From Athripsodes cinereus (lineage: Eukaryota; Arthropoda; Insecta; Trichoptera; Leptoceridae), in contig OX388318.1 of the NCBI GenBank assembly GCA_947579605.1, positions 25,096,098-25,160,097 on the forward strand: 64,000 nucleotides of DNA, given 5' to 3'. Shown here piece by piece: positions 1,970 through 58,600 of this stretch. The notes under the pieces are model-generated. The model searched no databases. It was not told the DNA's origin and saw nothing but the letters and a program-made list of their open reading frames with translations. The position numbers and the translations under genes were made by a program. Position 1 is the stretch's first letter. Every line of letters starts with the position of its first letter.

Positions 1970-3328
1970 CATTTTGAAACGTGTTCCTACAACTCGACAA
2001 AGCAACATAATCTTCAAATTTGATGAAGAATAATATACAAATCAGGATCAATAAGGATGGCAGTTATTCCTCATATCTAAACAAATACACATAGATGAAT
2101 GGCGCATCAGAGTATTGAGATGCAATTTCTTAGAGTATTATCGGACAGATGTTCACAGTGGCTGACGATCTGAAAACAAAAAAATACAATGAAAATCTAC
2201 ACACAAAACAAACTACTTTTGTGAAATTACAATGACTTTAGATGTTAAATATTCACCATTTTGAAACGTGTTCCTACGACTCTACAAAGCAACATAATCT
2301 TCAAATTTGATGATGAATAATATACAAATCAGGATCAATAAGGATGTCAGTTATTCCTCATATCTAAACACATACACATAGATGAATGGCGCATCAGAGT
2401 ATTGAGATGCAATTTCTTAGAGTATTATCGGACAGATGTTCACAGTGGCTGACGATCTGAAAACAAAAAAATACAATGAAAATCTACACACAAAACAAAC
2501 TACTTTTGTGAAATTACAATGACTTTAGATGTTAAATATTCACCATTTTGAAACGTGTTCCTACGACTCTATAAAGCAACATAATCTTCAAATTTGATGA
2601 TGAATAATATACAAATCAGGATCAATAAGGATGGCAGTTATTCCTCATATCTAAACACATACACATAGATGAATGGCGCATCAGAGTATTGAGATGCAAT
2701 ATCAGTTATTTTAGAAGGATTAACTATGTAACAGTTACGAGATATTTTGAATGTTTTTTACGTATTCTACAATGCACATCCGTTACTTGATTATTAAAAT
2801 CGCGATCGATTTCGGTAAACCATTGACGAGCGAGATAATACTATTATCTCGCTCGTCAATGGTAAAGGTTTACCGAAATCGATCGCGATTTTAATCATCA
2901 AGTAACGGATGTGCATTGTAGAATACGTAAAAAACATTCAAAATATTGAGATGCAATTTCTTAGAGTATTATCGGACAGATGTTCACAGTGGCTGACGAT
3001 CTGAAAACAAAAAAATACAATGAAAATCTACACACAAAACAAACTACTTTTGTGAAATTACAATGACTTTAGATGTTAAATATTCACCATTTTGAAACGT
3101 GTTCCTACGACTCGACAAAGCAACATAATGTTCAAATTTGATGAAGAATAATATACAAATCAGGATCAATAAGGATGGCAGTTATTCCTCATATCTAAAC
3201 ACATACACATAGATGAATGGCGCATCAGAGTATTGAGATGCAATTTCTTAGAGTATTATCGGACAGATGTTCACAGTGGCTGACGATCTGAAAACAAAAA
3301 AATACAATGAAAATCTACACACACAACA
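1970..3328. repeat. Tandem satellite, 287-base unit, about 3.8 copies
   Basis: Units start with CATTTTGAAACGTGTTCCTA at 1970, 2257, 2544 and 3088. The first two steps are exactly 287 bases. The third step is 544 bases, which equals 287 plus a 257-base addition made of a 13-base duplication and a 244-base insert (2701-2944). The units are nearly identical with only scattered substitutions, so the array is young or has been homogenised. The last unit is incomplete. No protein-like frame is present. Confidence 0.9.
2688..2957. mobile_element. 244-base insertion holding a loopless hairpin, 13-base duplication
   Basis: ATTGAGATGCAAT is present at 2688-2700 and again at 2945-2957, flanking an insert at 2701-2944. 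From 2744 to 2944 the insert is an inverted repeat centred on base 2841. The left arm is 97 bases and the right arm 103. I see one substitution and one 6-base difference between them, with essentially no loop. The first 43 bases are not part of the palindrome. The 13-base duplication resembles retrotransposition rather than cut-and-paste transposition, and no coding sequence is present. Confidence 0.75.
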
Positions 3329-3499
3329 AAAGAAAGAAAAATAAAAATAAAATAAATAAAAATAAGACAATAAACAGCCTCCACCTTTTACATTGACAAT
3401 TGACTTGGAAATATATAATTTTACTCAAGCAAGGCAAGTCTAACATTACAAAGTAGTATTTAGATACTCTTTGATTACAAACGCCTTAAGAACATTTCA

Positions 3500-11822: not shown

Positions 11823-11907
11823 ATATTTGGTTTAAAATGTTATATATATTCAAATCGAGGTGATCGGTAGTGTGATAGTGGAGTTTTAGACTTTTGATTA
11901 AGAGGTT

Positions 11908-12124
11908 CAGCAGGGCTACTCTTGACAAAACTAAACACGATCTTAATCTAGTCTTGATCTTGATCATACGACGCACGAAGTGACAATTGGCCAAAAATAC
12001 ACGCAAATCGATCGCGCGTTAGCGGTAGAGCGGTGTTTTTGATCATAGTCCCTTCGTGCGTCGTATGATCAAGATCAAGACTAGATTAAGATCGTGTTTA
12101 GTTTTGTCAAGAGTAACCCTGCAG
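11908..12124. mobile_element. MITE-1 copy (long hairpin), CAG duplication
   Basis: The 211-base element (11911-12121) begins CAGGGCTACTCTTGAC and ends with its near-complement. Arms of about 80 bases surround a short centre with TACACGCAAATCGATCGCGCG. Both flanks are CAG. Copies with the same ends lie at 18054-18264 and 21800-21992. A CWG target duplication is reported for some PIF/Harbinger elements, but the superfamily is an inference. Confidence 0.85.
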
Positions 12125-15566: not shown

Positions 15567-15750
15567 CAGTGGGCCTAGTCAAAACACATTTAAGCGTTAC
15601 GTTTTCGTTCAAACGCGGACGACGTTGCAAGAGCGCGTCAATTTTCGGAGCTAAAATACACAAGTAGCTCCGAAAATTGACGCGTTCTCGCAACCTCGTC
15701 TTGTTTGAACGAAAACGTAACGCTTAAATGTGTTTTGACTAGGCCTACTG
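15567..15750. mobile_element. MITE-2 copy 1 (178-base hairpin)
   Basis: The element at 15570-15747 has arms TRGRCCTAGTCAAAACACAT and runs into long complementary arms that include TTAAGCGTTACGTTTTCGTT. The centre is GAGCTAAAATACACAAGTAGCTC. It is flanked by CAG on the left and CTG on the right. The second full copy (45766-45943) has the same length with four substitutions that I can count. No coding capacity. Confidence 0.88.
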
Positions 15751-18043: not shown

Positions 18044-18050
18044 GTGGGAT

Positions 18051-18267
18051 CAGCAGGGCTACTCTTGACAAAACTATACACGATCTTAATCTAGTCTTGA
18101 TCTTGATCATACGACGCACGAAGTGACTATTGGCCAAAAATACACGCAAACCAATCGCGCGTTAGCGGTGGCGCGATGTTTTTGACCATAGTCCCTTCGT
18201 GCGTCGTATGATCAAGATCAAGACTAGATTAAGATCGTGTTTAGTTTTGTCAAGAGTAACCCTGCAG
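18051..18267. mobile_element. MITE-1 copy, CAG duplication
   Basis: The element is 211 bases (18054-18264), the same length as the copy at 11911, with the ends CAGGGCTACTCTTGAC and GTCAAGAGTAACCCTG. CAG is present on both sides. A few substitutions distinguish it from the 11.9-kb copy. Confidence 0.88.
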
Positions 18268-18470
18268 AATAACAAAATAAAGATTGTAAAGAATATGTAG
18301 ACTCCATAATGTTTTGTGAAGGAATGGATGTCTATGGTAACTCACTGATGGGGCTCACCGACTCCGGAGATGTGTTGCTTTTATATTTTTGAGTTTATAG
18401 GTACGTTGAATTAGTCAAAATAATATTTCTTCCATTTCAAAGTTTTACTTTTTTAATAATCAATTACTAA

Positions 18471-21785: not shown

Positions 21786-21799
21786 ATCACATCATAATC

Positions 21800-21995
21800 T
21801 AAATACGATCTTAATCTAGTCTTGATCTTGATCATACGACGCACGAAGGGACTATATGGTCAAAAACACCGCGCTACCGCTAACGCGCGATCGGTTTGTG
21901 TGTATTTTTGGCCAATAGTCACTTCGTGCGTCGTATGATCAAGATCAAGACTAGATTAAGATCGTGTTTAGTTTTGTCAAGAGTAGCCCTGCTGC
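21800..21995. mobile_element. MITE-1 copy, left end missing
   Basis: Long complementary arms around ATCATACGACGCACGAAGGG and its reverse match the other copies. The right end GTCAAGAGTAGCCCTG is followed by CTG, again fitting CWG. The first 20 bases of the left arm are replaced by the end of the preceding MITE relative. Confidence 0.8.
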
Positions 21996-27165: not shown

Positions 27166-27272
27166 AACCAACGTTCATTGACTGATTGATTCGAAATTTT
27201 TCCTTTGAACATCCAATCTATATTAAAGATCATTGTTATTTATATCAGTGTTATTTGTACTAGGTATACTAT

Positions 27273-27647
27273 TGTAACGTAAATCGTTTTTCTATAACTT
27301 GTGTCAGGGAAAATAAAGTCTGAATTCAATTAAAAGGATGACATCTTGAAAATTAACAATTTATTTAAACGTTTTTATTTATTTACAATTATTATTTATT
27401 TAAAATACATATTACAACATCTATTATTTATATATACGTCACATATTATTACAGTTCACACAGATTTCTTATATACACATTATATAACATCTTTCTTCAA
27501 GCCTATCTAGATCTTTCTTTTTTTCATCAAAACCAAAACAACCACCTGTCATTATTTTCCAAACATTCCATAACCAAAAATAATATAAAAATTCAAATTC
27601 ATTAAACTTCCAAACTTAAGTACCCTCCTAATGGTGATTACGTAACA
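27273..27647 (-). repeat. 3' LTR
   Basis: Begins TGTAACGT and ends ACGTAACA on the plus strand. Read in the sense direction it is TGTTACG..CGTTACA. A TATATATAAATAA box and several AATAAA strings are visible in sense orientation and could serve promoter and polyadenylation roles. Confidence 0.95.
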
Positions 27648-27660
27648 TTGCCTCCCTCTT
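27648..27660 (-). promoter_or_regulatory. Polypurine tract
   Basis: Sense sequence AAGAGGGAGGCAA lies directly before the 3' LTR and just after the stop codon, the expected plus-strand priming site. Confidence 0.85.
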
Positions 27661-27663
27661 AAT

Positions 27664-30600
27664 TTAGTTCGTCCCGAACGAATTCTCTGGATGAAGATAG
27701 GAGCATCCTGAATCCTCTCTGCAATGTGAAGTCTTGAAGAAATAACAAGGTACAGACTTCTTGATGTTCTCACTATACCCTGGATTAAAACAACAAACTA
27801 AAACATTAATTCCAGTATTACAGAAGATCTCTTCTATCATATTTCGAACAACTTTCCAATCCATACTGCCACTTATCCTTGCTATGCCGAGCTTCGTAAG
27901 ATTCATTTGTAACATTTGATCCCGCAAACTTTGTAAACAGTGCCACATCTGAACATACTCTGTTTGTTCTTCAGGGATTGCTTTATTTACCATGTAAAAT
28001 ATATGTCGTTCCCCATGCTGTAGATGGACCGCTTCTCCAATTTTCAAACTCTTGGCCTTAATCTCTTCCAATATCCCGTACTTCTTCTTGAAAACTTTGG
28101 CTATGCCATTAGTAAATTTTGCATTCTGAGCCAAGCAATGAGCCAAAACATAATCCTCTGGAGTGTCAAAAAGATCTTGCTCAACTTCGATAGTGACACC
28201 ATGATGAATTCTTCGTTGAGGCGTCTTCATAAACTCTTCAAAACTCTTCTCTTCACTTAGGACTTTACAGACTTGAACAATCGGGTTGTTTCCTTCACTT
28301 TTATTGTCTCCTAAAAACGGTGCTAAGCGATTGAAATGTACCACCCTCGGCTTGCCATTTGATTTTCGTCGTATTCGATAAATAACGTCATTTATTCTTT
28401 TAATCACCTCGTACGGTCCTTCCCAGGATTTTTGAAGCTTCGGTGAATAGCCTCGTCTCCGTTGAGGATTGAACAACCAAACTAAATCTCCAGCTTGATA
28501 CCCTCCTTCCACAGCTTTGACATCATATCTTTCCTTCATCCTGTCACTAGCGACTTGAATATTAGCCCGCACACGTTCATGGATGTCGTTCATCTTTCTC
28601 CGAAGTTCCGATACATAATCTTCTCCAACAAGATCCTCTCCAGGCTTAGATCCATACTGCAAGTCGCAAGGTAACCGTAGTTCACGGCCAAAAATCACAC
28701 TTGCTGGTGTTTGTCCCGTTGTCTCATGAATTGCCGAACGATAGGCCAATAAGAACAAGTGGATGTATTCGTCCCAATCCTTCTGATGATCAGACACCGC
28801 CTTCGACAGATATTTTCCACATGTTCGATTCATTCGCTCCACCATTCCATCCGACTGTGGATGCAAAGCAGTTGTTCTCGTTTTTCGAATTCCCAATATC
28901 TCACATACTTGCTGAAATACGGCTGACTCAAAATTTCTTCCTTGATCCGAATGAAGCTCCAAAGGTACTCCAAAACGACTTATCAGCTCTCTTACCAAGA
29001 TTTCAGCAACAGTGGTAGCCTCTTGATTTGGTAATGCATAGGCTTCTGTCCATTTACTAAAATAGTCCATTGCTACTAAAATATACTTGTTCCCTCTTTC
29101 AGTTGTGGGAAACGGTCCTGCTATGTCGATGGCTATTCTTTCAAATGGACTACCTACATTGTACTGTCTCATTGGCGCACGCCTCTGTTTTTGAGGTCCG
29201 TTCGAAGTAGCACAAGTCACACATCTTCTACACCAATCTTTTACATCTTCAGTGTAACGGACCCAATAAAATCTCTGACGAATCTTTTCTGTAGTTTTTT
29301 TAACTCCCAAGTGTCCACCAGACACATCATCGTGAAGCAGCTTAAGGACATCAGGAACTCTCTTCCTTGGAACCAATAGCTGTTGTTTCTGCTGTGTTCC
29401 ATCTTCACTTTCCAGAATACGTTTCAACAACCCGTTTTCCACAACTATGGATTGCCATTGTGCCCAATATGATTTAACATTTGGTGAACATGAAGCTATT
29501 TCTTCCCATGAAGGTTTTCGATCATTTTCTTTCCACTGCATCAAAAGTCCAAGGTCAGGATCTTCCAACTGGTGCGCTCGAATTTCATCATCTTGCCAAA
29601 AATTATCGATGACTGTAGTTCTACGAATCATGACGAACCTTTCCTCCGCTTTATTACAATGCTGGCAATCCTCTGGACATGGACGCCTTGACAGTGCATC
29701 AGCATTTTTATGACGAAGTCCAGCTCGATGCTCAGAATCATAGTCATATTCTTGCAATCTTTCTATCCATCTTGCAACCTGACCTTCAGGATTCTTGAAT
29801 CGTAACAGCCATACAAGCGCCGAATGATCTGTCCTTAAAAGAAATTTCCGTCCATATAGGTATTTGCGGAAGTGCTCAACTGACTTGATTACAGCAAGTA
29901 ACTCTCTTCGCGTTACACAATAGTTGCGTTCCGGCCTTGACAAAACTTTACTGAAGTACGCAATTACGCGTTCTTGACCATCCTGAACCTGAGATAGTAC
30001 ACTTCCAATGCCGACGTTGCTTGCATCCGTATCCAGAATAAAATTCCCTTCGGCTCGAGGATAACTTAGAATCGGGGAATTAATCAATACCTTCTTCAAT
30101 TCTTCAAACGCGCATTGGCATTTTGAATCCCATATAAATTCATTACTTTCTTCTGTGAGTTTTGTCAATGGTTTAGCGATATCAGCGAAGCCCAAAACAA
30201 ATCGCCGATAGTAAGTGCTTAAGCCTAAAAAGCTTCTTACTTCATGCTTGTCTTTAGGTGTAGGCCAGTCTTGAACAGCTCTAATCTTCTCAGGATCCAC
30301 CGCCACTCCTTCCTCAGAGACAACATGACCCAGATAGTTGACTTGTCTTCGGAACAATGTACATTTCTTAACATTGAGTTTCAAGTTGGCCGCTCTCAAT
30401 CGTGAAAACACTTGTTCCAAATTTCGTAAGTGCTCCTCAAAACATTTTCCAAGCACGATGATGTCATCCAGGTACACTAAACAGGTCTCCCACGACAATC
30501 CTCTCAGCACGCTTTCCATTAAACGCTCAAAAGTAGCCGGAGCGTTACAAAGTCCAAACGGCATAACAATGAACTGCCATAATCCACTTCCAATAGAGAA

Positions 30601-33000
30601 TGCTGTTTTCTCTCTATCCTTAGGTTCCAGTCCAACCTGCCAATATCCACTCTTCAAATCCAACGTTGAAAAGATTTTACAGCCAGCCAATGTGTCCAAC
30701 GTATCATCAATACGAGGCAAAGGGTAACTGTCCTTCTTAGTAACATTATTAAGTTGGCGAAAATCAACACAGAACCGAGTTGAGCCATCCTTCTTCCTAA
30801 CCAGCACTACAGGTGAACACCATGGACTGCTTGACGGTTCTATTACCTTGTCCCGTTCCATATCTTGAATAATTTGATCTGCTTCCGCCCGTTTTGCTAA
30901 AGGTAATCTTCTGGGTACTTGACGAATGGGTCTTGCATCACCTGTGTCTATTCGATGACTAACAACACTTGTTCTTCCTTTGGGTTGACTTGGGTTCTCG
31001 AAGACATCCTGATTTCTAGCGATGAAGGATCTAATCTGTTTGCTCTGTTCCTTGGTAAGTTCCTTACAAGCCTCCTTCACTAAGTCGTCAAGGTGTTTTG
31101 GTACCTCCTCTGAAGAAACTTGGCCACCGCTCACTCTACATGTTACTGACGAAACCGATGAACACATACTTAAATAAACTCCTTCTTTGATAGTCACTGG
31201 ATAGTCATTGATATTCATTAGCCTGACCAAAATATCCTTTTTAGCTTGAATCAGGACTCTCGCAATCAACACTCCTTTTCCAGCTTCAGTATTAGCGTTG
31301 GACTCCACTACTAAAACATGTCCATTTGGAATGTCACAATCTAAGTAGGCTCGTACTAACATTTCACTTTGTTTTGGAATAGTAACAACTTCTGCCGCAA
31401 GCACACGTGTAGCGAATTCTTCATGCTCTTGTACAAGAATATCTTCATCCCCAATTTTCAGAGTTCGCCTCTTCAGATCCAGTTTGAATCCATACTTCGC
31501 CATTACATCCATTCCAAGAATAACTTCCTCCTCTATCTCAGCCACCAACACCTGATGATCGAAGATGGTGCTTCCAATGTGAAAGTTGGCAACTGTCTCA
31601 CCGCATACAGACGCCGACTCTCCAGTTGCCGTCCGTAATGTCCATTTAGTTGATTTTATTTGTTTTTTTTCGCAAACTAAATCAGGTCTCATGATTGTCT
31701 TTGTTGCTCCAGTGTCCAACAAAAGTTTCAAATTCTTTCCATTTACTTTGCCATTTATAAACATGCTGCTGACTTGTCCGCTGAACGACGCAACATCTGC
31801 ATATCTCTTCGAGGCATTGGCAATGCGGGTCGACAGTTGCCCCTTTCCATCAACCCTTTTTAGTTTTCCTGGACACCGATTACGCAGGTGTCCAATTTGT
31901 CCACAGTCCCAGCAACGTAGTTGTCTCTTTTTTCCTTTCAAGGCCTCCAAAACCTTCTTAACTACGTCTTCTATTGAAAGTGGTTGATTTTCTTGTACAG
32001 CTTCCATCACACAGGATTGAGCGTGACCTCGTACGGATTGTCTTACAGCTTCAAATTCGAGTGCTTGGGTTAAAGCATCCCTAAGAGTTTGTGGTCTAGC
32101 CAGTTTTATAGCTTGTTGTGTCTCACTTGCTCGTAGTCCATCCAAAAACTTGTCTACTGCAAGACTTTCACATACATCATCAGAAACTGTAGGGTATGCA
32201 CATCTCACTAGACGCGCTACATCCGCCTCGAATTCCTGTAGAGTTTCATTGGGCCTCTGCACACGATTCTTCAACTGTGACCTATAAACTTGTTCCACAT
32301 GCTTTTGTCCAAATCGCATCTCCAGTCTCTCAACCAAAGATTTAAAGTTTTGTCTGTCCGCAAGCGGAATCATCTGAAGGACTCTTAAAGCATCTCCTCG
32401 TAAAGATATACTCAATACTGATGCTTTTCTTGTCATCGACCAGCCATTTATCATAGCTACTGTTTCGAACAAAGTTAAGTACTCTTCCCAAGAGTTCTTT
32501 CCATCAAAAGTTGGCATATCACTACGCACATGCTCCACCATTGAAGATGCACCACTCTCTACACACTTGAACTCTGTGTCCACCGTTGTGTTCTGCTCAA
32601 AATCCGTTCTTGCTGTTGAAGAAAGCGCCTGATTCTCCAAAACTTTCACCTGCTTTGTTAACTCGCTAATCCTTTCATCAAAGGACACAGAATATTCTTG
32701 AAACTTCCTTTCAATTTCTTCTTTCGTTCCTCTAGAATCTTCTCGAAGCCTTTCTATTTCTTCTTTCATAGCTGTAGCATTTTCTTGAAGCTTCTTTTCG
32801 ATTTCTTTATAAAGCTCACTGGTGGTTATAGGCAACTCGAAGATATATGTTTCCGGATCTTCACCTGCTTCTTCCATCACCTTTCTTAGTCGAAGTTGGA
32901 GCACACCCTTCGTTCCAGATGTATCCGCGTCTCTTTCTTCTAGTTCGCGCTTCAGATCCACCACTTTCAAGTCAAGTAGAGTTAATTTTTTTGATGACAT
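27664..33000 (-). CDS. gag-pol: Gag-Pol polyprotein with SAP-like, macro and CCCH domains
   Basis: This single frame of 1778 residues would supply all proteins for reverse transcription and integration of the element. Domains by residue: SAP-like helix-turn-helix at 8-44; coiled coil about 60-125; Gag core about 155-320; CCHC knuckle C363, C366, H371, C376; aspartic protease DTGA at 429-432; reverse transcriptase about 690-870 with YLDD at 843-846; RNase H about 984-1105 with D990/D992, E1033 and D1058; integrase zinc-binding region with H1223, H1230, C1260 and C1263; catalytic D1292, D1352 and E1388 (spacing 59 and 35); GPY at 1528-1530. Unusually, a macro domain follows at about 1597-1741 and a CCCH finger at 1752-1770. 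The start at 33000 is the first ATG of the frame and lies 67 bases inside the 5' LTR edge. No frameshift separates gag from pol. No envelope is present. Confidence 0.96.
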   Translation of the reverse strand: MSSKKLTLLDLKVVDLKRELEERDADTSGTKGVLQLRLRKVMEEAGEDPETYIFELPITTSELYKEIEKKLQENATAMKEEIERLREDSRGTKEEIERKFQEYSVSFDERISELTKQVKVLENQALSSTARTDFEQNTTVDTEFKCVESGASSMVEHVRSDMPTFDGKNSWEEYLTLFETVAMINGWSMTRKASVLSISLRGDALRVLQMIPLADRQNFKSLVERLEMRFGQKHVEQVYRSQLKNRVQRPNETLQEFEADVARLVRCAYPTVSDDVCESLAVDKFLDGLRASETQQAIKLARPQTLRDALTQALEFEAVRQSVRGHAQSCVMEAVQENQPLSIEDVVKKVLEALKGKKRQLRCWDCGQIGHLRNRCPGKLKRVDGKGQLSTRIANASKRYADVASFSGQVSSMFINGKVNGKNLKLLLDTGATKTIMRPDLVCEKKQIKSTKWTLRTATGESASVCGETVANFHIGSTIFDHQVLVAEIEEEVILGMDVMAKYGFKLDLKRRTLKIGDEDILVQEHEEFATRVLAAEVVTIPKQSEMLVRAYLDCDIPNGHVLVVESNANTEAGKGVLIARVLIQAKKDILVRLMNINDYPVTIKEGVYLSMCSSVSSVTCRVSGGQVSSEEVPKHLDDLVKEACKELTKEQSKQIRSFIARNQDVFENPSQPKGRTSVVSHRIDTGDARPIRQVPRRLPLAKRAEADQIIQDMERDKVIEPSSSPWCSPVVLVRKKDGSTRFCVDFRQLNNVTKKDSYPLPRIDDTLDTLAGCKIFSTLDLKSGYWQVGLEPKDREKTAFSIGSGLWQFIVMPFGLCNAPATFERLMESVLRGLSWETCLVYLDDIIVLGKCFEEHLRNLEQVFSRLRAANLKLNVKKCTLFRRQVNYLGHVVSEEGVAVDPEKIRAVQDWPTPKDKHEVRSFLGLSTYYRRFVLGFADIAKPLTKLTEESNEFIWDSKCQCAFEELKKVLINSPILSYPRAEGNFILDTDASNVGIGSVLSQVQDGQERVIAYFSKVLSRPERNYCVTRRELLAVIKSVEHFRKYLYGRKFLLRTDHSALVWLLRFKNPEGQVARWIERLQEYDYDSEHRAGLRHKNADALSRRPCPEDCQHCNKAEERFVMIRRTTVIDNFWQDDEIRAHQLEDPDLGLLMQWKENDRKPSWEEIASCSPNVKSYWAQWQSIVVENGLLKRILESEDGTQQKQQLLVPRKRVPDVLKLLHDDVSGGHLGVKKTTEKIRQRFYWVRYTEDVKDWCRRCVTCATSNGPQKQRRAPMRQYNVGSPFERIAIDIAGPFPTTERGNKYILVAMDYFSKWTEAYALPNQEATTVAEILVRELISRFGVPLELHSDQGRNFESAVFQQVCEILGIRKTRTTALHPQSDGMVERMNRTCGKYLSKAVSDHQKDWDEYIHLFLLAYRSAIHETTGQTPASVIFGRELRLPCDLQYGSKPGEDLVGEDYVSELRRKMNDIHERVRANIQVASDRMKERYDVKAVEGGYQAGDLVWLFNPQRRRGYSPKLQKSWEGPYEVIKRINDVIYRIRRKSNGKPRVVHFNRLAPFLGDNKSEGNNPIVQVCKVLSEEKSFEEFMKTPQRRIHHGVTIEVEQDLFDTPEDYVLAHCLAQNAKFTNGIAKVFKKKYGILEEIKAKSLKIGEAVHLQHGERHIFYMVNKAIPEEQTEYVQMWHCLQSLRDQMLQMNLTKLGIARISGSMDWKVVRNMIEEIFCNTGINVLVCCFNPGYSENIKKSVPCYFFKTSHCREDSGCSYLHPENSFGTN
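27691..27747 (-). other. C-terminal CCCH zinc finger within Gag-Pol
   Basis: C1752, C1760, C1766 and H1770 give C-x7-C-x5-C-x3-H, the CCCH spacing seen in RNA-binding fingers. It ends eight residues before the stop. Function could be RNA or poly(ADP-ribose) binding; the sequence alone does not decide. Confidence 0.75.
27778..28212 (-). other. Macro domain (TARG1/OARD1-like) within Gag-Pol
   Basis: Residues 1597-1741 follow the pattern of the TARG1 macro domain, which removes ADP-ribose from acidic side chains. Visible blocks are DLFDTP..YVLAHC, NGIAKVFKKKYG, an IFYMVNK strand, ARISGSMDW and NMIEEIF. K1673 and D1714 fall at the positions of the two catalytic residues known in human TARG1 (Lys84 and Asp125), judged by alignment from memory. 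The domain is in frame with integrase and inside the LTRs, so it belongs to the element. An ADP-ribose hydrolase or reader role is an inference. Confidence 0.85.
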
Positions 33001-33049: not shown

Positions 33050-33067
33050 ACCCCACACCTGACACCA
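33050..33067 (-). promoter_or_regulatory. tRNA primer-binding site
   Basis: One base inside the 5' LTR the sense strand reads TGGTGTCAGGTGTGGGGT. The first nine bases fit the 3' end of an insect tRNA-Leu (..CTGACACCA), and the fit weakens beyond that. Primer identity is inferred. Confidence 0.65.
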
Positions 33068-33068
33068 G

Positions 33069-33443
33069 TGTAACGTCAATCGTTTTTCTATAACTTGTGT
33101 CAGGGAAAATAAAGTCTGAATTCAATTAAAAGGATGACATCTTGAAAATTAACAATTTATTTAAACGTTTTTATTTATTTACAATTATTATTTATTTAAA
33201 ATACATATTACAACATCTATTATTTATATATACGTCACATATTATTACAGTTCACACAGATTTCTTATATACACATTATATAACATCTTTCTTCAAGCCT
33301 ATCTAGATCTTTCTTTTTTTCATCAAAACCAAAACAACCACCTGTCATTATTTTCCAAACATTCCATAACCAAAAATAATATAAAAATTCAAATTCATTA
33401 AACTTCCAAACTTAAGTACCCTCCTAATGGTGATTACGTAACA
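33069..33443 (-). repeat. 5' LTR
   Basis: 375 bases, matching the 3' LTR except for C at 33077 where the other has A. It ends ACGTAACA next to CTAT. Confidence 0.95.
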
Positions 33444-33896
33444 CTATAATATATCGAATAGTCTACGGTTAGTACTAGATTATACATTTATGTATATAAG
33501 TTCATAAAAAAACAGCTATTATTATTCATAATGAGGATTAACTATAGTTTATACCTTTGTTTTAATGACCTACATCAAGTCAACTCATTTGTTTCAAACA
33601 AACATACACACATGCATATAATATCTACATAAAAAAGTAGTATTAAATGTACGTACTAACCCATACACGTATGTATATAATTATTAATAATATTTACATA
33701 CAATAAAATACATACTTACTCACTTATAACTATTCTGCTTATGATTTTTAAAGTCATTGAGGAGAATGTTATTAATAATTTTTTTTTTTATATGTCTTAT
33801 AATTACTTTCTTATCGATATGGGCTTCTCCCAATATTTTTTTGTTTAAATTTTATAAATACTGCTTGTCTCCGTATCTTATTTCACTTTGTTCTAA

Positions 33897-45762: not shown

Positions 45763-45946
45763 CAGTGGACCTAGTCAAAACACATTTAAGCGTTACGTTT
45801 TCGTTCAAACGCGGACGACGTTGCGAGAACGCGTCAATTTTCGGAGCTAAAATACACAAGTAGCTCCGAAAATTGACGCGTTCTCGCAACCTCGTCTTGT
45901 TTGAATGAAAACGTAACGCTTAAATGTGTTTTGACTAGGCCTACAG
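45763..45946. mobile_element. MITE-2 copy 2, CAG duplication
   Basis: The element 45766-45943 is 178 bases, flanked by CAG on both sides. It is about 98% identical to copy 1 at 15570 by my count. Confidence 0.92.
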
Positions 45947-57720: not shown

Positions 57721-57741
57721 TAGAAATTTGGGATGACAATC

Positions 57742-58600
57742 TTCGAGTTTTTACATTAAGATGAGGTTTTTAGTAGTTTTTGCACGTAGGTACCCGCCTA
57801 TTTTTCTAAATAAAATATGAGCTTTCGAGGTGTCGAGCTCACATATTTTTCATTTGGAAGAGGTTTTTAGCACTTTTTCCATGTAGGTACCTACCAATAT
57901 GTGGAATTTCTTAACTTCAAGCTTTTTCATCGGGACGAGGTTGTTAGTACTTTTTTTTCCATGTAGGTGCCTACTTATTTTTTTTTTACATAAATGTGAA
58001 CATCTGAGGTGTCAAACTTCAAGATTTTTCAATGGGAAGAGGTTTTTAGCACTTTTTTCGATGTTGGCACCTACCTATTTTTTTTACCTAAGTATGGGCA
58101 TGTGAGGTATCAAACTTCATGATTTTTCATTGGGAAGAGTTTTTCAGCACTTTTTTCGATGTAGGTACCTACCTATTTTTTTTACCTAAGTATGGGCATG
58201 TGAGGTATCAAACTTCATGATTTTTCATTGGGAAGAGTTTTCCAGCACTTTTTTCGATGTAGGTACCTACCTATTTTTTTACCTAAGTATGGGCATGTGA
58301 GCTATCAAACTTCATGATTTTTCATTGGGAAGAGTTTTTCAGCACTTTTTTCGATGTAGGTACCTACCTATTTTTTTTACCTAAATATGGGCATGTGAGG
58401 TATCAAACTTCAAGATTTTTCATTTAGAGATTTGCAATGCTTTTTATGATGTAGGTACCTACCTATTTATTGTTACTAAGCTATGGGCATGTAGGGAGTC
58501 AAAAATTAAGTTTTCTCATTGGGAAGAGCTTTTTACTTCTTTTATCCACGTAAGTGCTTACTCCGTTTTTTTTTTCAATAAGATTTTGTTGTTTTAACCC
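57742..58600. repeat. Minisatellite, 97-base unit, about 8-9 copies
   Basis: Each unit has a GTAGGTACCTACC-type palindrome followed by ACCTAAGTATGGGCATGTGA, CAAACTTCATGATTTTTCAT and GGGAAGAG. The palindrome recurs at 57786, 57883, 57963, 58063, 58161, 58259, 58356, 58451 and (degenerate) 58550. Steps are 97, 80, 100, 98, 98, 97, 95 and 99. The middle units are the most alike. It is followed by AACCCGAGCGATGCCGGGTT, a small hairpin seen near some Helitron ends. Confidence 0.88.

Follow-up and report, generated by a model that had tools for sequence, protein, structure and literature searches.

Macrodomains carried by viruses are a classic sign of ADP-ribosylation restricting a virus. Chromatin-type modules are also found in retroelements: in chromoviruses, a chromodomain follows the GPY module of the integrase, where it reads histone methylation and is used for site choice. 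Macro-domain open reading frames (ORFs) occur in fish epsilonretrovirus-like endogenous retroviruses, according to a passage of a review (PMC4977317, citing Basta et al. 2009). The present study concerns a stretch of 64,000 nt from Athripsodes cinereus (Trichoptera, Leptoceridae; assembly GCA_947579605.1, contig OX388318.1, positions 25,096,098 to 25,160,097 of the forward strand), hereafter the window, in which one complete long terminal repeat (LTR) retrotransposon was found on the minus strand. It is a Ty3/gypsy element that has captured an accessory domain, and we regard it as virtually certain that it represents a complete, recently multiplied family in which Pol ends with the order integrase, TARG1-class macrodomain and CCCH finger. 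This fusion behind the integrase had been proposed in a sequence-only reading of the window and is now upheld by at least 118 copies in the genome and by a relative, P0002. The same reading knew of no described gypsy lineage with such a layout; in agreement, no Ty3/gypsy-macrodomain fusion appeared among the titles and abstract starts listed from the open-licence literature, subscription papers and repeat databases being outside that search. In two papers, the term 'macro' occurred solely in a reference title (PMC8672886) or had no occurrence (PMC2577118).

The element displayed the paired LTRs, TG...CA ends and target-site duplication of LTR retrotransposons, and its Pol order (reverse transcriptase (RT), RNase H, integrase), as recorded with Pfam after cutting the Gag-Pol ORF into pieces, is that of Ty3/gypsy. 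Since the ORF stops 16 nt before the 3' LTR, the tail behind the integrase lies within the element. Its features are the following, with coordinates given as positions within the window.

27269..27272, no strand: target-site duplication CTAT, left copy, flanking the element (right partner 33444..33447)
27273..27647, minus strand: 3' LTR, 375 bp, TG...CA, 374/375 identical to the 5' LTR (BLAST)
27648..27660, minus strand: polypurine tract AAGAGGGAGGCAA, adjoining the 3' LTR, read from the sequence
27664..33000, minus strand: single Gag-Pol ORF, 1778 aa
27691..27747, minus strand: CCCH zinc finger C-x7-C-x5-C-x3-H, residues 1752-1770, a pattern match
27784..28200, minus strand: TARG1/OARD1-class macrodomain, residues 1601-1739
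27859-27861, minus strand: D1714 codon, within the macrodomain
27982-27984, minus strand: K1673 codon, within the macrodomain
28318..28419, minus strand: integrase p58/GPY C-terminal module (Pfam PF22938, 1.6e-13)
28864..29148, minus strand: integrase catalytic core, rve (Pfam PF00665, 3.4e-16)
29200..29373, minus strand: integrase H2C2 zinc domain (Pfam PF17921, 4.3e-20)
29746..30048, minus strand: RNase H (Pfam PF17917, 3.1e-35)
30322..30801, minus strand: reverse transcriptase (Pfam PF00078, 1.3e-36)
31708..31716, minus strand: protease DTG motif, residues 429-431 (gag-asp_proteas 1.8e-4, below cut-off, a partial match as the query piece ended within the domain)
31864..31920, minus strand: Gag zinc knuckle (Pfam zf-CCHC_6, 5.9e-4, 20.1 bits, just under the cut-off of 22)
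32131..32415, minus strand: Gag core (Pfam PF03732, 9.9e-9)
33050..33067, minus strand: primer-binding site candidate TGGTGTCAGGTGTGGGGT, starting with TGG, one base past the 5' LTR
33069..33443, minus strand: 5' LTR, 375 bp, TG...CA
33444..33447, no strand: target-site duplication CTAT, right copy

A SAP domain, which is of a DNA-binding type, was recorded at the N terminus of Gag (32881..32970, minus strand; Pfam PF02037, 2.1e-6, over cut-off).

The predicted fold of the domain was closest to TARG1. The sequence-only reading had recognised the domain by its block order, and the assignment was borne out by sequence and fold comparison, not by profile search: the window tail gave no macro match above threshold among the curated profiles of Pfam and NCBIfam, and the Pfam Macro model matched neither the domain of the window family nor that of group B, a second set of elements described below. 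These sub-threshold profiles are the sole point in favour of an artefact (chance similarity, misassembly or read-through from the element into a neighbouring gene), an explanation of vanishing probability that the present results refute. Sequence shuffles ruled out a chance similarity of the macrodomain. Read-through into a host gene was ruled out by the stop codon, which lies between the two LTRs and their target-site duplication, 16 nt ahead of the 3' one, and by the at least 118 full-length copies; P0002, moreover, lies on a different contig.

The CCCH pattern was present in both the window tail (P0001) and P0002; when the last 40 residues were shuffled 200000 times, it arose in 31 cases. 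With 20.9 bits (3.4e-4), the finger of P0002 passed the Pfam zf-CCCH cut-off of 20.5, and that of the window copy remained under cut-off (best CCCH model 0.14). Third-position G+C content was similar in the tail (0.380) and the integrase part (0.352), while total G+C was slightly lower in the tail (0.386 versus 0.425).

The window family was abundant in its own genome (716 Mb, 160 contigs). A search with the tail, in which tail-less copies could not appear, gave at least 146 matches (150 of 173 candidates scored). By hand count, at least 118 copies spanned tail residues 1-219, so that the region is present in other family members, as far as a search made with the tail itself can tell; among these 118, four contained a stop and 42 lay in an open frame of 1779 codons. 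A common frame of 1412 codons in place of 1779 was seen in 18 copies (hand count), which suggests that a subfamily has spread whose Gag part carries a stop or an altered frame. From the 117 other full-length rows, 89 copies with the top tail scores were fetched (one short-contig row was skipped), a sample therefore biased to unchanged tails. Residues were checked in 88 of them, and 85 were kept for identity and selection analyses, four below 97% identity being left out. The median identity to the window copy was 99.63% over 2157 nt (85 copies), which indicates a recent burst of the family. All four CCCH ligands were identical in 88/88 copies; a tail stop was seen in one of the 88 and a tail deletion in none.

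Relative P0002, carried by a contig of 990 nt, displayed 73% identity to the window tail over 98% of its length. Its start corresponds to the last part of a p58 module of an integrase (Pfam 3.7e-4, under the cut-off), and its tail is open and gap-free, with lysine, aspartate and CCCH ligands retained. It was the single match among 86 candidates in a protein search with P0001 alone; P0002 was found there as a predicted protein, and broken relatives are invisible to such a search. When a 1128-residue piece of Pol served as the protein query and the comparison was restricted to the tail, 0/90 candidates matched; the database therefore lacks longer relatives, or these have no words in common with the query. 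Scans of viral contigs (with P0001, the two-member alignment, an RT piece and the group B alignment) gave no confirmed relative, nor did scans of prokaryote contigs. In a profile search 3561 of 3724 candidates matched, which is no test of membership because human TARG1 was part of the query alignment; no insect occurred among the source-named entries of the best 120 of these 3561 matches. Likewise, no Metaviridae name was found among the 50 matches listed in a search of viral structures, many of them unnamed, a result with no bearing on known errantiviruses.

Group B consists of the four distant tail matches from the same genome (L031 to L034, 22-24% identity), which belong to another Ty3/gypsy group. 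L031, the member in which env was examined, carries gag, pol and a 565-residue env of baculovirus-F type (Pfam Baculo_F, 3.5e-44). Together with a low G+C content, this env points to a probable arthropod host. In the pol of L031, RNase H is followed by the TARG1-like domain and then by the integrase zinc domain; flanking Pfam domains were checked in L031 and L034.

L031, 4001-4618, minus strand: TARG1-like domain
L034, 3848-4465, plus strand: TARG1-like domain

Both matched C6orf130 (phmmer on PDB sequences; 4.2e-10 for L031 and 3.9e-7 for L034) and were 40% identical to each other across the TARG1-like segment. Comparison of group B with OARD1 by hhalign gave a probability of 98.3% (E 1.7e-14), and profile comparison with the window family one of 97.7 (E 2.3e-12). 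L032 and L033 were broken copies; a 323-aa ORF adjoining one of them (L033:7381-8352, minus strand) resembles an integrase fragment by eye. The linkers ahead of the domain displayed a weak likeness between the window family and group B (p 0.015-0.05), and the module may have passed between element lineages. The occurrence of a related domain in an env-bearing group, and elsewhere in Pol, argues against the window family being a one-off. A possible, though rather doubtful, generalization is that Ty3/gypsy elements of arthropods have repeatedly been armed with TARG1-type macrodomains, in at least two lineages of one genome, against ADP-ribosylation-based defence or an integration repair checkpoint; if true, they would be the retroelement parallel to viral macrodomains.

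Regarding the role of the tail in the window family, our preference, held at a little under even confidence, goes to an ADP-ribose module that acts together with the integrase, mainly as an eraser. Because it is placed after the GPY module, the domain would travel with the integrase to the insertion site unless cleaved. It would either remain joined to the integrase or be released by the protease, and would enter the nucleus together with the element DNA. DNA breaks trigger PARP activity, and at the integration site the domain may bind ADP-ribose of chromatin or repair proteins and, if still catalytic, remove it through its TARG1-type lysine. PARP-dependent silencing or repair signalling would thereby be blunted during closure of the insertion gaps, and the CCCH finger would contribute affinity for RNA, e.g. 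the element's own. Mammalian L1 is silenced by SIRT6 through mono-ADP-ribosylation of KAP1, as described in a passage of PMC4695847. In parp-1 mutant flies, according to parts of PMC7712786, most misregulated mobile elements are up-regulated, some of them from the gypsy superfamily, as are nine of ten further up-regulated elements, all ten being outside significance limits. An eraser would weaken such ADP-ribose marks; a reader would use them for site choice.

The equivalent of TARG1 K84, which forms the catalytic intermediate (a passage of PMC7050489), is K1673, identical in 88/88 other copies and kept in P0002. The sequence-only reading had both catalytic positions apparently retained, and this stood for the lysine and became ambiguous for the aspartate. 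TARG1 D125 is the catalytic acid (given as Glu125 in one review passage); several alignments pair it with D1714, an equivalence that depends on gap placement, and D1714 itself is invariant in 88/88 copies and kept in P0002. Equivalents of the pocket residues D20, G43, I44 and K84 were kept in 88, 88, 87 and 88 of 88 copies, respectively.

Quite a few observations weigh against an active eraser. D1714 was left unpaired with D125 by hhalign. The window copy differs at the equivalents of G19, S35, T83, G121 and G123 (TARG1 positions numbered by counting from K84), and its catalytic loop is three residues shorter than that of TARG1. Where TARG1 has its GCG motif, the window copy reads SGS and P0002 reads SDG; both SGS and SGN occur across the family, residue 1712 being polymorphic (S in 58/88 and N in 30/88 copies). 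TARG1 mutation G123E abolishes ADP-ribose binding (a passage of PMC5928194); serine at this position is a milder change. When P0001 was compared with P0002, OARD1-conserved columns were retained no better (48/68) than variable ones (57/79). Within group B, the catalytic residues are degraded, more so in L034 than in L031: the lysine is kept in L031, L034 has glutamine instead, and no residue of the group pairs clearly with D125. Within the window family, purifying selection on the macro segment was not demonstrated (see below). Finally, the effect in parp-1 flies is possibly indirect, as the authors of PMC7712786 allow. Retention of an ADP-ribose pocket, implied by the sequence-only reading, held in part: the pocket is altered (shorter loop, GCG to SGS), not clearly lost, and hydrolase activity is putative.

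The same loop, changed beyond what is expected for a maintained enzyme, speaks for a pure reader, i.e. an integration-targeting module that tethers the integrase to ADP-ribosylated chromatin such as breaks, the nucleolus or PARP-rich sites. This tentative alternative, which we deem rather unlikely, also accords with the location right behind the p58/GPY module and with the precedent of chromoviruses, Ty3/gypsy elements with a chromodomain (in the consulted part of PMC2577118). Yet a lysine identical in 88/88 copies and kept in P0002 would be superfluous for a pure reader, and the group B domain sits before the integrase, not after it.

RNA binding is common for CCCH fingers. The macrodomain and the finger might form an RNA-binding or structural add-on that binds element RNA or aids particle assembly, with a vestigial ADP-ribose chemistry; this seems unlikely to us. 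Such a role is allowed by the RNA binding of TARG1 outside its pocket, taken together with the finger. A passage of PMC5928194 reports RNA binding by TARG1 even with a mutated ADP-ribose pocket. The invariance of the four CCCH ligands (88/88 copies) and the degraded catalytic residues of group B, particularly in L034, point the same way, whereas the almost complete retention of the D20, G43, I44 and K84 equivalents does not fit a vestigial chemistry.

Selection was assessed by comparing non-synonymous (N) and synonymous (S) changes in replicated variants and singletons among the 85 copies. Purifying selection was evident for the integrase (6 N:17 S replicated versus 96:45 in singletons, p 0.0003). 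In the macro segment, it was not demonstrated within the family (3 N:1 S versus 15:7, p 1.0), nor was it in the whole tail (4:3 versus 23:14); for both, the numbers are low and unchanged tails are over-represented in the sample. Sites where all other copies differ from the window copy were excluded (one amino-acid change in the macro segment, one silent change in the integrase). This lack of a signal, together with the median copy identity of 99.63%, is what a passive passenger would display, i.e. host OARD1 sequence captured by chance and kept because the copies are young. We nevertheless consider it improbable, since the tail of P0002 is still open and gap-free at 73% identity with its lysine, aspartate and CCCH ligands, and a related domain occurs at a different place in a distant group. 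The P0002 tail is the best argument for use of this region, because a stop in the tail would spare the integrase.

Other repeats were observed in the window. Three copies of a ~200-bp element resembling miniature inverted-repeat transposable elements (11904-12124, 18047-18269 and 21794-21994) displayed ~95-96% mutual identity and 85-88% identity to their own reverse complement. Another short palindrome was present in two copies, 97.8% identical (15567-15750 and 45763-45944), and tandem-type local repeat blocks were found at 1970-3330 and 57734-58573.

An abundant fusion of a TARG1-class domain with an integrase suggests that ADP-ribosylation matters for host transposon silencing or insertion-site repair, and that an element may read or erase a signal of host DNA repair and gene silencing. 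With respect to known systems, the closest protein is TARG1/OARD1 (C6orf130) of the ALC1-like class, a free cellular enzyme that takes off ADP-ribose tags and has a longer catalytic loop, whereas the domain described here is part of a retroelement polyprotein. ALC1-like hydrolases are minimal and devoid of extensions (a passage of PMC7050489); here, a linker precedes the domain and a CCCH finger follows it. Compared with other Ty3/gypsy elements with a p58/GPY integrase, the window family shares LTRs, polypurine tract, the order Gag, protease, RT, RNase H and integrase, and the 4-bp target-site duplication, and differs by its macrodomain and CCCH tail and by the SAP domain at the Gag N terminus. 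Group B, env-bearing and errantivirus-like, likewise combines a Ty3/gypsy Pol with a TARG1-like domain, but before the integrase, with a baculovirus-F env (L031) and loss of the lysine (L034). Fish endogenous retroviruses, compared through the review description, are likewise retroelements with a macro domain; they are vertebrate retroviruses with additional ORFs, in contrast to the integrase fusion of a Ty3/gypsy element. The chromoviruses are a clade named in PMC2577118. They likewise have an extra chromatin-type module, placed after GPY: where they carry a chromodomain, the window family carries a macrodomain, a member of an ADP-ribose-binding class.
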